Origin: Mycoplasmatota bacterium
Lineage (GTDB): Bacteria > Bacillota_I > Bacilli_A > RF39 > UBA660
Direction: 5' to 3'
DNA: 64,000 nucleotides
Assembly: GCA_022774645.1 (NCBI GenBank)
Contig: JALFKQ010000035.1
Coordinates: 1-64,000 of the forward strand
Part shown: positions 57,609 to 61,752 of the stretch, piece by piece
How the letters are laid out: each line of letters begins with the position of its first letter
Position numbering within the stretch: the stretch's first letter is position 1
Position numbers and translations under genes: made by a program
Notes under the pieces: generated by a model
What the model was told of the DNA's origin: nothing
What the model saw: the letters and a program-made list of their open reading frames with translations, nothing else
Databases searched by the model: none

Positions 57609-58796
57609 TTATTTAGTTAACCTAGGACAAAAAGAATTTTTAATATTATCTTTATAATTTGATAAAACAATCTTAGTTACTTCATTTACCTTATTAACAT
57701 CAATATTTAAAAAATTAGATATTACATCATCACTAAAAAATTGATTGTTTATAAAACCAAATTTCAAAATAATGATAATTAATTCATCAGAAGAAAATTC
57801 ATCAAATATATTTAACATTTCCTCTGATTTAGATAATTTTACTGCCTCTTCATAAATCTTAGAAGTAATTATACTTTTTTCTGATAAGCTCGAATTTTTT
57901 AATATTCTTTTTATTTTTCTAACAATACTATCATGATAATATTTTGTTTGTTCAGGTGTTAACTTACTCACATAATCAGAAGAACCATCTCCATATTTAA
58001 GAAATATTATTTTTTTATCGTAATCATTTAATTTAGAAACGGCTTTATCAACTTCTTCTTTTGAATACGATGAAAATGACTCATAAATAGATTTTTTCTC
58101 ATTTTTCTTCTTTTTTTTAGATATACTCACTTTTTTATTACTAATATCTATATATCCTTTTTCACTTAAATTCTTTCCTAAATCACTTACTAATTTAGAT
58201 ATCTTTCTAGATAAATAAGTATGAGTAATTGAAAACATATCAGCAATCTCAAGTTGAGTATATCTTTCACTATCAAAAAATCCAAAATACATTGTTAATA
58301 TTCTTTTATCATTATCAGGCAATTTCTCTATCTCAGATAATATAGAGTCTTTAAGTTCAGAGTTAATAATACTACCTTCCAAATCAAAATCGTCTAAAAT
58401 AGTTTCACCAAGTCTAAAATCACTATCATCACAAATAGGATTATCAAAACTATCAACATAAAAGTGCTTTTTTTCAGATTTTAAAAACCTTAATATTTCA
58501 TTATCTATACATTTAGAAAGATAAGTAGAAAACTTAACATTATAACTTATATCAAAAGTTTCAACAGCATTTAATAATCCGATATTACCAACTTGAACTA
58601 AATCATTCTTATCAAACCATAAAGTACAATATTTTTTATTAATATAATAAATAACGAATTTAATGTTGTATCTCACAATAGTATCTTTAGCTTCCAAATC
58701 ACCATTTCTATACCTTTTAAATAATTCTATAATTTCTTTATCAGATATAGATGCTGGTAAAAAATAATCACTTAAAAATGATTCAACCTTTTTCAT
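57609..58796 (-). CDS. Sporulation-type sigma factor with extra C-terminal modules
   Basis: About 395 aa against ~240 for SigE/F/G/K-type factors. Region 2 (RYNIKFVIYYINKKYCTLWF, then DLVQVGNIGLLNAVETFD) and a first region 4 (LPDNDKRILTMYFGF, then YTQLEIADMFSIT) are good. Two further region-4-like units follow, near residues 250-300 (LNDYDKKIIFLKYGDG) and 330-385 (FSSDELIIIILKFGFI), with poorer helix-turn-helix parts. ATG 58796 has AAGGGG 9 nt upstream. Promoter specificity cannot be told. Confidence 0.75.
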   Translation of the reverse strand: MKKVESFLSDYFLPASISDKEIIELFKRYRNGDLEAKDTIVRYNIKFVIYYINKKYCTLWFDKNDLVQVGNIGLLNAVETFDISYNVKFSTYLSKCIDNEILRFLKSEKKHFYVDSFDNPICDDSDFRLGETILDDFDLEGSIINSELKDSILSEIEKLPDNDKRILTMYFGFFDSERYTQLEIADMFSITHTYLSRKISKLVSDLGKNLSEKGYIDISNKKVSISKKKKKNEKKSIYESFSSYSKEEVDKAVSKLNDYDKKIIFLKYGDGSSDYVSKLTPEQTKYYHDSIVRKIKRILKNSSLSEKSIITSKIYEEAVKLSKSEEMLNIFDEFSSDELIIIILKFGFINNQFFSDDVISNFLNIDVNKVNEVTKIVLSNYKDNIKNSFCPRLTK

Positions 58797-58889
58797 ATTT
58801 TTCAACCCCTTATATGAATATAATTTTTTAAGTTCAAATATAATACCACATATTTTCTAAAAGTCAAATTAAATAAAAATAGTGTTCAT

Positions 58890-58918
58890 TTTACAAAATT
58901 AAATAAATATGATATAAT
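58890..58918 (+). promoter_or_regulatory. Promoter of the structured RNA
   Basis: TTTACA (58890-58895), 17 nt, TATAAT (58913-58918). The predicted start falls at about 58925, the first base-paired bases of the RNA. Confidence 0.85.
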
Positions 58919-58923
58919 GTAGA

Positions 58924-59378
58924 TGTATGGAGCATTATGCTAGTCAAACATACCACTAGAAGATGGGGCTAAAAATCCATCAATTGTGTAAAAATGATAC
59001 TTTATATATTTTGCTTCTTTCGCCCAGATTGGGGTGGATATATAATTTTAGATTTAAGGAAAAGATGTAATGGCATATATCCGAATCCTTATATCAAATC
59101 GAAGAACACGAACACACATGTCGTGAGTGAATTATTGGGATAGTAATTGAAAAATAATTTGCAAAAGCGAATAAAAGTGATTTATGTTTGTTTGGGAAAA
59201 CCTCTAGTATGCCTATATTATAAGGATTGAAGTGCGGACTAAGTGGTGATCGAGTGATCATTATGGCAACAAATGGTTAATTCTTTCAAAGAGAAATCGC
59301 CCTAGGGTAACCGAAGGTAAGAATTAGAGAAATTCGACTCGACCAAAGCCGTAAAATTAATTTATAATATTCCATACA
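58924..59378 (+). ncRNA. Large structured RNA, candidate OLE RNA
   Basis: A 600-bp stretch without a gene that folds. The ends pair over 8 bp (TGTATGGA 58924-58931 with TCCATACA 59371-59378). Inner stems are CTAGT/ACTAG (58940, 58955), GATGG/CCATC (58962, 58977), GGATATAT/ATATATCC (59036, 59075), CACGA/TCGTG (59107, 59121), TGATC/GATCA (59247, 59256) and TAATTCTT/AAGAATTA (59278, 59319). GATTT+AAGG (59051-59059) pairs with CCTT...AAATC (59087-59100), interleaved with the GGATATAT stem. Context (a CorB-like OapA gene 20 nt downstream) suggests OLE RNA, normally ~600 nt. Not RNase P, tmRNA, SRP or an intron by motif. Confidence 0.72.
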
Positions 59379-59397
59379 CAAAACCAAAGGGAGTTAA

Positions 59398-59922
59398 ATG
59401 AAAAAAGATAATTGGATAATAAAGGCATTTTTAATGACTTTTTTTATAGCACTAATTTTCAGTAGTGCTTCAAATTTTATAATTGCAAAATACAATAATA
59501 CAATATTACTTATATCATTATGCATTTTATTTATAGGTATAGGAATATTATTTGACATAATCGGAACAGCAGTATTAACTGCTAACGAATCTTCATTTCA
59601 TGCTAAAAGTTCTAAAAAAATCAAAGGTTCAAAAGAAGCTGTAAAACTAATTAAAAATTCAAGTACAATTGCAAGTATATGTAATGATGTTATAGGAGAT
59701 ATATGTGGAATAGTCAGTGGTTCTGTTGGAGCTATGCTTGCTATTAATATATCAACAAAATTTAACATATCAGCAATAATTGTAACATTATTAACAAGTT
59801 CAATAATATCATCACTAACAGTTGGTGGTAAAGCAATTGGAAAAAAATACGCAATCAAAAAAAGTGATGCAATAATATTTATAGTAGCTAAATTATTAAA
59901 TAAAATAAAAATAGAGAAATAA
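59398..59922 (+). CDS. oapA: Candidate OLE-associated protein A (CorB/DUF21-like)
   Basis: 174 aa, four helices (about residues 8-28, 35-57, 92-112 and 118-140) with a basic segment between the second and third. LFDIIGTAVLTANESSFHAK and NDVIGDICGIVSGSVGA hold the conserved core, including a D-x3-D motif (DVIGD). I recognise this as the CorB-like family that includes OapA, the membrane partner of OLE RNA, linked to Mg2+ and alcohol stress. GGGAG ribosome site. It is the only gene after the RNA before a terminator. Confidence 0.75.
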   Translation: MKKDNWIIKAFLMTFFIALIFSSASNFIIAKYNNTILLISLCILFIGIGILFDIIGTAVLTANESSFHAKSSKKIKGSKEAVKLIKNSSTIASICNDVIGDICGIVSGSVGAMLAINISTKFNISAIIVTLLTSSIISSLTVGGKAIGKKYAIKKSDAIIFIVAKLLNKIKIEK

Positions 59923-59937
59923 CTTCTCTATTTTTTT
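59911..59937 (+). terminator. Terminator of the RNA-oapA unit
   Basis: ATAGAGAA/TTCTCTAT (59911-59918 with 59924-59931) with T7. Confidence 0.92.
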
Positions 59938-60178
59938 AATTTAATCTTTCAGTAAATAAATTACCAATTGTTTCTAATACCTGAATATTATCAATATCAA
60001 CTAAGGTAACATTACCATTTATATCTTTTTTACTTTCAACAATTATATAATTATTAGTTATACCTTCTTTTTCATTATCTACTTGAAGTCCCATAAGATA
60101 ATTTTTACCTTCGTATGACATTTCATCTAATACATAATATTCAAGACCATTATCTAATGTTATTACTTTATCTATCAT
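59936..60178 (-). CDS. DUF1292-like small protein A
   Basis: 80 aa, MIDKVITLDNGLEYYVLDEM, YEGKNYLMGLQVDNEK. Close in form to DUF1292 proteins such as YrzB. Last gene of a three-gene operon with the collagen-like membrane protein. Function unknown. Confidence 0.7.
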   Translation of the reverse strand: MIDKVITLDNGLEYYVLDEMSYEGKNYLMGLQVDNEKEGITNNYIIVESKKDINGNVTLVDIDNIQVLETIGNLFTERLN

Positions 60179-61752
60179 AATGTAGGTCCTCCCATTCCGC
60201 TAACCAGTTCACTAGCTGATATCCAAGCTTGATCTCTTCCTGCTTTATCCATTACAGAAACTGCAACTCTGCTTGGATCAATTCCATTTGCAGCACAGAA
60301 CTCTTCAATTGATAAACCATTTGTATTTATAACTTGACCTATTGATCCATCTGGATTAACTGCAGCAAATCTACCAAAAATTGAATCTCCATTTACATAT
60401 TGAGATAATAATGGTTTTGTTTCAATTCCCATAACAGCTCTATCAGAACTAATGTGACCAACACTTACATTGTAATCACCTACTTCACTACCTATTCTAA
60501 TACCATCATATTGAGAAACTGGATCTACAGTTGGGGTTGGTTGAGACGGAGTGACTGTTGGTTCTGGATTAGTAATATTAGGCGCAGGTTCTGGATTTGG
60601 AGTTGGTTCTACTGCCGCTGGAGTTGCAGCATTATGAGCTTGAATCAAATTATGAACAGTACTTGCAACAGTAAGAGTTGTACCAGTAATAATTGCAGAA
60701 TTAATCATCCAAGACATATCTCTTAATCCTTCTTCTGTCCTAAACTTATTCTTAACTCTATCAATTAAACCTTTCAATCCTGGTCGTGGTTCAACTACCG
60801 TATTTATTTTGCTTTGTAATCCGAGTTGATTTAACTCAGCTATTTCTTTTCTTCTTTTATTAATAAATTTATTAGCTATACCACCTGCAAGTGCCATAAC
60901 ACCTACACCAAGTGGCCCAGCTGTAAAGAATACAGCAGCACCAAGTCCGATACCTGCTGCTACATGTAATATTGTTTTCCATGTAACTTTTGGTTTATTA
61001 GATTTAACTTTAGGTTGTACTGGTTCTGGTTCCTCTGGGCCAGGTCCGTCAGGACCGATAGGTGGAACTGGTGGAACTGGATCTCCAATATTTATAGGCC
61101 CATCACCTGTTGTACCGCCTGGACCCTCTGGGCCACCATTTCCAGGTCCCTCTGGTCCAGGTCCGTCAGGACCACCCTTACCTGGTCCATCATGAGTTGG
61201 CTTAACAGGATCTTTCCCTTTAGTCATACCTTTTGGTATTCCACCATATTTAAGCTCTCTCATTCTTTGCATTATATGACTTTTTTCAACCATTAAATCA
61301 TTTAAAGCTAATTCATTCTCTTCAATCCTTTTTCTAGCGTCCTCTTGTAATTTAGCTAATGATGCAGGAATTTCATGGCCTTCTGCCATTTGTACACTAG
61401 CTATATTAGTATCTTTTTCAATAGCTTTTTCTAATTCTTTAATTTGCCTTGATACTTCTATTCTTCTCTTACCTAGTTCAAAATATTCAGCTTCTTTCTT
61501 TTCAATAATAACATTAAATTTATTAGCATTTTCATATGCTATATCAGTTATTTTATCAATTCTAGCTTTTTGTTCACTACTAAGTTCATTATCATTTTCA
61601 ATTTGAAAAGCCTCATTCTTAACATTATCAAAAATTTCAAATCTTTTTCTAAGTTCTTCAAGACCATAATATTCAACATCAAGTTCTGCTAATTCTTCTA
61701 ATTCAATAGTTTCTTGTAAAACTTGTTCTAATCTATCCATTCTAACATTCAT
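60175..61752 (-). CDS. Membrane protein with coiled coil and Gly-Pro-rich linker
   Basis: 525 aa. An N-terminal coiled coil (residues 1-165); a linker with many DGPG/GPEGPG units (about 180-250); a Gly-rich hydrophobic pair (HVAAGIGLGAAVFFTAGPLG to GVMALAGGIAN); another helix near 350; a Pro/Thr-rich spacer; and a C-terminal domain (YDGIRIGSEVGDYNVSVGHI and onward). The linker is GC-rich against its neighbours. No family recognised. Confidence 0.75.
   Translation of the reverse strand: MNVRMDRLEQVLQETIELEELAELDVEYYGLEELRKRFEIFDNVKNEAFQIENDNELSSEQKARIDKITDIAYENANKFNVIIEKKEAEYFELGKRRIEVSRQIKELEKAIEKDTNIASVQMAEGHEIPASLAKLQEDARKRIEENELALNDLMVEKSHIMQRMRELKYGGIPKGMTKGKDPVKPTHDGPGKGGPDGPGPEGPGNGGPEGPGGTTGDGPINIGDPVPPVPPIGPDGPGPEEPEPVQPKVKSNKPKVTWKTILHVAAGIGLGAAVFFTAGPLGVGVMALAGGIANKFINKRRKEIAELNQLGLQSKINTVVEPRPGLKGLIDRVKNKFRTEEGLRDMSWMINSAIITGTTLTVASTVHNLIQAHNAATPAAVEPTPNPEPAPNITNPEPTVTPSQPTPTVDPVSQYDGIRIGSEVGDYNVSVGHISSDRAVMGIETKPLLSQYVNGDSIFGRFAAVNPDGSIGQVINTNGLSIEEFCAANGIDPSRVAVSVMDKAGRDQAWISASELVSGMGGPTL

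Follow-up and report, generated by a model that had tools for sequence, protein, structure and literature searches.

To our knowledge, OLE RNAs are among the largest structured bacterial RNAs that lack a known biochemical function. Two proteins associated with them, OapB and OapC, are essential in Halalkalibacterium halodurans and are not universal among OLE hosts. OLE from H. halodurans is described as an abundant, processed RNA that is bound to OapA at membranes (PMC9723947, PMC12265935). Cryo-EM structures place the dimer contacts of OLE in L4, which forms A-A pairs, in the pairing of L5.1 with L6.1, and in a palindromic P9 loop (PMC12286853, PMC12265935). The P3/P3.1 stem, of ~12 bp, is proposed to cross the bilayer (PMC12265935), a model that was itself inferred in the literature from partial structures, and P6 has been reported to contain a bS21 site that includes a mimic of the anti-Shine-Dalgarno sequence (PMC12054373). 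In the 2024 survey of GTDB genomes by Fernando and Breaker (PMC11332333), variant 1 OLE RNAs are described as having short P7-P9, and variant 2 OLE RNAs, which are common in RF39, as being without P7 and P8; both clades are largely without OapB and OapC. As far as its text goes, the survey gives a short P9 to variant 1 and mentions no loss of the P9 kissing arm for variant 2.

The window considered here, by which we mean the whole 64-kb stretch of DNA that was analyzed, very probably encodes a variant 2 OLE RNA together with its membrane partner OapA, expressed from one promoter in a gut member of the Bacilli that has a reduced genome and is RF39-like by its inferred taxonomy. The original prediction, of an OLE-type RNP below the typical length in which OapA is the partner, named the Rfam OLE model as the means of checking; the model (RF01071) indeed matches positions 58911-59391 (+) with 219.1 bits and an E-value of 2.3e-60, the gathering threshold being 50 bits. 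The alignment runs end to end over model positions 1-616 with three large deletions, and its first 13 bases, with the -10 box among them, precede the terminal stem. OLE is the sole Rfam match in the window, and this is the sole OLE in the genome. The features of the locus are the following:

58890..58918 (+), sigma-70-type promoter for OLE and oapA, TTTACA-17-TATAAT, conserved in 17/17 species of the genus
58924..59378 (+), OLE RNA of the variant 2 type, ~455 nt from P1 to P1, based on Rfam match, alignment and covariation
58924..58931 (+), 5' strand of P1, UGUAUGGA, which pairs perfectly over 8 bp with UCCAUACA at 59371-59378
58945..58957 (+), 5' strands of P3 and P3.1 (8 + 4 bp), with partners at 59183-59190 and 59176-59179, based on covariation
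58969..58976 (+), L4 loop CUAAAAAU, invariant in 17/17, corresponding to the loop whose A-A contact joins the dimer in cryo-EM structures
59001..59046 (+), P5, in which the loop GCCCAG (59022-59027) is the L5.1 kissing loop, based on alignment and covariation
59051..59095 (+), P6, in which the loop AAUGGCAU (59069-59076) is the L6.1 kissing loop, based on alignment and covariation
59096..59119 (+), short unpaired linker at the place of P7/P8 in full-length OLE, based on alignment
59120..59171 (+), P9, shortened, with a GUAA tetraloop (59142-59146, AGUAA) instead of the palindromic kissing arm
59215..59370 (+), 3' part of domain 2 (helices 13-18), based on alignment and covariation
59398..59922 (+), oapA, encoding a CNNM/CorB-like membrane protein of 174 aa, based on family, fold and position behind OLE
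59907..59935 (+), intrinsic-terminator-like hairpin of 12 bp followed by T residues, based on sequence

Set against full-length OLE of H. halodurans and clostridia (RF01071; PMC12286853), the RNA has in common P1-P6, the base of P9, domain 2, the A-rich L4 loop, the L5.1/L6.1 loops and the downstream oapA. It differs in its length (455 versus ~600 nt) and in the absence of P7 and P8, which are replaced by a linker of 24 nt, and so does not belong to the full-length subtype; it also has no palindromic P9 loop. The likeness to variant 2 as described in PMC11332333 extends to the missing P7/P8, the OLE core, the OapA partner, a clade that is largely without OapB and OapC, and the occurrence in uncultured gut bacteria; the RNA is therefore of this known subtype, and RNA and partner are of a known kind rather than a new class. 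One difference from variant 2 is that the P9 kissing arm is gone throughout the genus of the window, a loss on which the text of PMC11332333 is silent. Contigs of the sister species come from rumen and rabbit-gut MAGs labeled 'Erysipelotrichaceae' or 'Bacilli', and the host is likely a member of RF39.

The outline of the transcription unit had been anticipated correctly, from the promoter, through a non-coding stretch of ~455 nt with perfectly pairing ends (455 nt between the outer ends of P1), to the putative terminator behind the protein gene. The -35 (TTTACA, 58890-58895) and -10 (TATAAT, 58913-58918) boxes match 11/12 consensus bases and form the best-scoring site of the region, and a TTGACA-17-TATAAT-type promoter with the same 17-nt spacer and 10-12/12 matches stands in the same place in all 17 species. 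No reading frame is conserved through the OLE region in the genus, the longest stop-free run in each frame being only 23-32 aa in the species where it is shortest, and a coding alternative was rejected since no frame is common to the genus. Because the oapA start lies 19 nt 3' of the terminal stem of OLE, on the same strand and behind the same promoter with no terminator between, the RNA could also be read as a cis-acting leader of the oapA mRNA and not as an RNA that acts within a particle. We consider this improbable, however, given that H. halodurans OLE is reported as abundant, processed and OapA-bound at membranes (PMC9723947, PMC12265935), that OapA is on another contig or ~2.5 kb from OLE in two genomes of the bacterial family (G020 and G068), and that in a third (G051) OLE has no oapA behind it.

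The secondary structure of the RNA, which was composed of the Rfam pairs, with P1, P2, P3 and P3.1 added from the sequence itself (129 pairs), is backed by strong covariation. In an alignment of 17 species of the genus (that of the window and 16 others; mean column identity 88%), 31 pairs have changed on both sides, where shuffling gives 14.1 +/- 2.2 and sliding the partners by 1-3 columns gives 3-9, and 90.4% of cells can pair versus 36-44% with slid partners. Compensatory changes are present in P1, P3, P3.1, P4, P6, P9 and several helices of domain 2, so that the inner helices put forward from the single sequence, whose fold has z = -3.07, are borne out by their evolution. The same cannot be said of the interleaved pairing that had been proposed between GGATATAT (59036-59043) and ATATATCC (59075-59082), since in the two-helix alternative built on it only 5 cells have two-sided changes where 4.1 are expected; we rejected this pairing, as its covariation is no better than chance and the second helix of the alternative is nothing other than the P6 base. 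That base, AGGA paired with UCCU, is invariant in the genus and is still formed in the window, although the full CCUCC mimic is absent from P6 of the window.

The covariation also bears on whether the locus might be a non-functional remnant of OLE that is decaying as the genome shrinks, with the missing P7, P8 and P9 arm as signs of decay. Genomes of the genus are small (~0.9-1.6 Mb), OapC is lost, and the P9 arm has been lost recurrently, all of which would suit such a history. Thirty-one pairs with compensatory changes among the 17 species, a promoter kept in every one of them, invariant loops, and an oapA gene that is intact in every member of the genus make decay very unlikely, and we keep to the reading of a conserved variant 2 OLE with its OapA partner.

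Across the bacterial family, OLE is found in 249/386 genomes. We aligned and classed 128 of the family RNAs; L245 (377 nt) was set aside because its 3' part is poorly aligned and coding-like, and L248-L251 were left out as matches that are cut short or split close to the end of a contig. Three size classes emerge, with 49 RNAs having P7/P8 (543-618 nt), 76 without P7/P8 (464-541 nt), and 3 without P5-P8 (378-381 nt). The fallback of the original prediction was a new class of large RNA whose partner is OapA-like, and a length 20-25% below that of typical OLE and the loss of whole helices might point to it. It is effectively excluded by the full-length match of 219 bits, by graded intermediates up to OLE RNAs of 618 nt within the same family, and by conserved loops and a partner that are the same as those of OLE.

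On the OapA tree, the loss of P7/P8 is one change and the shortening of the P9 arm at least 11 changes. The apex of P9 in full-length OLE is palindromic in 44/50 RNAs when L245 is counted (GGCC in 31, AGCT in 10, GTAC in 3), in agreement with the published covariation of the P9 loop. Two full-length RNAs, L015 and L016, have lost the arm independently, and L244 has an arm of 6 nt inside a group with arms of 42-44 nt. All 17 species of the window's genus have a P9 arm of 3-9 nt, with a GNRA tetraloop in several (GUAA in the window), and therefore the P9 contact cannot form in this genus; the dimer, if it is made, must rely on L4 and on L5.1/L6.1. In the same species the L4 and L5.1/L6.1 sequences are invariant and the L9 palindrome is absent. 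Every family RNA with P5 and P6 has kept its L5.1 and L6.1 loops, and L4 reads CUAAAAAU in 75/76 RNAs of variant 2 (the remaining one being truncated) and in 3/3 of the shortest form, while it is A-rich and more variable in full-length members.

The three shortest RNAs (L053:2163-2543; L246, at G169:C5:12168-12545; and L247:2116-2493 on the minus strand) come from two genera of a sister lineage and are the smallest complete OLE RNAs in the family survey; L247 matches the Rfam OLE model with 136 bits. P5-P8 are missing from them, and with these helices the L5.1/L6.1 loops, the OapC k-turn and the bS21 site, whereas P1-P4, the base of P9, domain 2 and oapA are kept and the P9 loop carries the palindrome UGAUCA. 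Their nearest relative, L239, has a P9 arm of 5 nt. None of the 128 RNAs misses the palindromic P9 loop and the L5.1/L6.1 loops together, a pattern that is at most suggestive because the loss of P5-P8 took place in a single lineage. None of the three size classes has lost the P3/P3.1 stem of ~12 bp or the A-rich L4, the predicted interstrand pairs of the stem numbering (interquartile) 10-12 without P7/P8, 13-15 in full-length RNAs and 11-14 in the shortest, with 12 bp in the window. That P3/P3.1 is near-constant in length while the remaining RNA shrinks by up to 40% fits the idea of a membrane span, without amounting to proof. The main text of published OLE work, so far as it was available, makes no mention of the loss of the P9 arm, the 378-381-nt form or the constant P3 stem, and these may in part be known already.

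The protein encoded behind the RNA had been described as a four-helix protein with a D-x3-D motif ~20 nt downstream, and identified as OapA, a CorB-like protein; both the description and the identification agree with our results. The protein belongs to the family found behind OLE in relatives, with 38-77% identity to the OapAs of named genomes and 42-75% to family members, and it contains the invariant motif CNDV-x-GD-x-CG as well as D97-x3-D101, in which both Asp residues are invariant. It is predicted to be a four-helix membrane protein of the CNNM/CorB fold. Pfam CNNM gives only a weak match, below the cut-off (E 1.9e-5), and no PDB sequence was matched by the OapA profile. An AlphaFold2 model built from an alignment of 36 OapAs (mean pLDDT 86, pTM 0.78) has VIA Z 14.6 and 2.1 A over 128 residues against the membrane domain of archaeal CorB (7m1t), and Z 12.3-12.4 against bacterial CorC (7cff, 7cfg). 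The next folds reach Z 8.2 or less with an rmsd of 6, and these lower matches (Smac and others) were taken as common helical-bundle resemblance. Because the Pfam match is under its cut-off and the best Foldseek E-value is 3e-3, the fold assignment rests on VIA-align; judged by this model, 'CorB-like' is the correct term for OapA. Relative to the CorB-like fold, the model has one extra N-terminal helix (residues 6-32). OapA thus has the membrane-domain fold of the MpfA/CorB/CorC (CNNM) magnesium transporters (7m1t, 7cfg) but is without their CBS or CorC_HlyC domains, and MpfA itself is absent from the bacterial family of the window.

The window OapA also differs from those of full-length-OLE relatives in having no basic N-terminal tail. 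A tail with at least 8 K/R before the first membrane helix is present in 33/39 OapAs that accompany full-length OLE and in 0/66 that accompany OLE without P7/P8; an example is L002:873-1481 (-), to be compared with the tail-less N-terminus of the window OapA at 59398-59412. A contact between tail and P7/P8 would explain the matching absence, but this is only an idea, and we rejected a functional link as a conclusion since the single loss of P7/P8 on the OapA tree gives it no statistical weight. The absence of the tail wherever P7/P8 are absent is probably one event.

In the genus of the window, OLE is present in 16/17 other species, and in the remaining genome (G013) the RNA is cut off by the end of a contig next to oapA; oapA lies directly 3' of OLE in the genus and in most relatives. 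We examined a panel of 118 genomes, of which 71 belong to the family and 47 to other families of the class. OLE is found in 51/71 family genomes versus 0/47 others, and OapA likewise in 51/71, one weak match outside the family (G090) being the MpfA-type gene of that genome. Conversely, OapC/L7Ae is found in 0/71 family genomes versus 36/47 others, and MpfA (CorC_HlyC) in 0/71 versus 39/47. OLE and OapA disagree in two of the 71 family genomes, namely G013, in which OLE is cut by the contig end, and G051; G013 aside, OapA occurs in family genomes only alongside OLE. In G051, which is 93% complete, the full-length OLE (L021:1501-2103, -) is intact and oapA was found neither downstream nor elsewhere. 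A second, partial OLE match of 154 bits lies at a contig end in G042 (G042:C3:70010-70394, L052), whose genome also has a full-length OLE, and may be contamination or a second copy.

OLE, OapA and MpfA were all not found in 19/71 family genomes (e.g. G018, G023, G024, G032, G037). It follows that MpfA does not make good the loss of OLE there, and that the function is either dispensable in these bacteria or otherwise met. These 19 genomes qualify the published anticorrelation of OLE and MpfA, and with it the idea that MpfA simply replaces OLE.

Unlike full-length OLE systems, the window genome has no OapC gene, a search of protein families giving no L7Ae-family protein, and lacks an OapB gene in the position normal for Bacilli, which we take to be between map and infA; at that site, the one inspected, nothing separates map from infA. 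As the genome is a MAG with 94% completeness and 5% contamination, these gene absences are not proven. A gene for bS21 is present.

Drawing on work with Halalkalibacterium OLE and on cryo-EM of clostridial OLE, a working model for this RNP can be proposed by analogy. OapA, a four-helix protein of CNNM/CorB type, would keep the RNA at the membrane, two OLE RNAs would pair through their A-rich L4 loops and L5.1-L6.1 kissing loops, and the P3/P3.1 stem might run along or through the bilayer. The particle would adjust divalent-metal and general stress physiology, protecting against Mg2+ and other stresses, and would thereby fill the role that MpfA-type proteins have in bacteria without OLE. In the genus of the window, neither OapC nor P7/P8 nor the P9 arch would be available to the particle.

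We suggest tentatively, and with rather more doubt than belief, that the dimer contacts of OLE in this family are modular and each dispensable, one or more kissing contacts always remaining, that an irreducible OLE of ~360 nt would consist of L4, P3/P3.1, domain 2 and OapA, and that a catalytic or sensing core would lie outside P5-P9. Short natural OLEs show which parts evolution discards and which it keeps; if the cryo-EM contacts disappear one by one and L4, the P3 stem and domain 2 are retained throughout, it is in these that the essential function would reside. Should this be true, natural OLEs would form a deletion series for testing the dimer and transmembrane models of 2025, and a much smaller RNA would become usable for structural and biochemical work.

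Downstream of the unit, a gene at 60175-61752 (-) encodes a protein of 525 aa with a Gly/Pro-rich middle and one membrane segment, for which no family match above the cut-off was obtained, and a DUF1292 gene follows downstream of it. Upstream, six sister species have a YgjV-like gene directly 5' of OLE. A gene for a sigma-70 factor (57609-58805, -) stands divergently upstream of OLE only in the species of the window; the N-terminal half of its product resembles the sporulation factors SigE/SigK, and it has a long extra C-terminal part.
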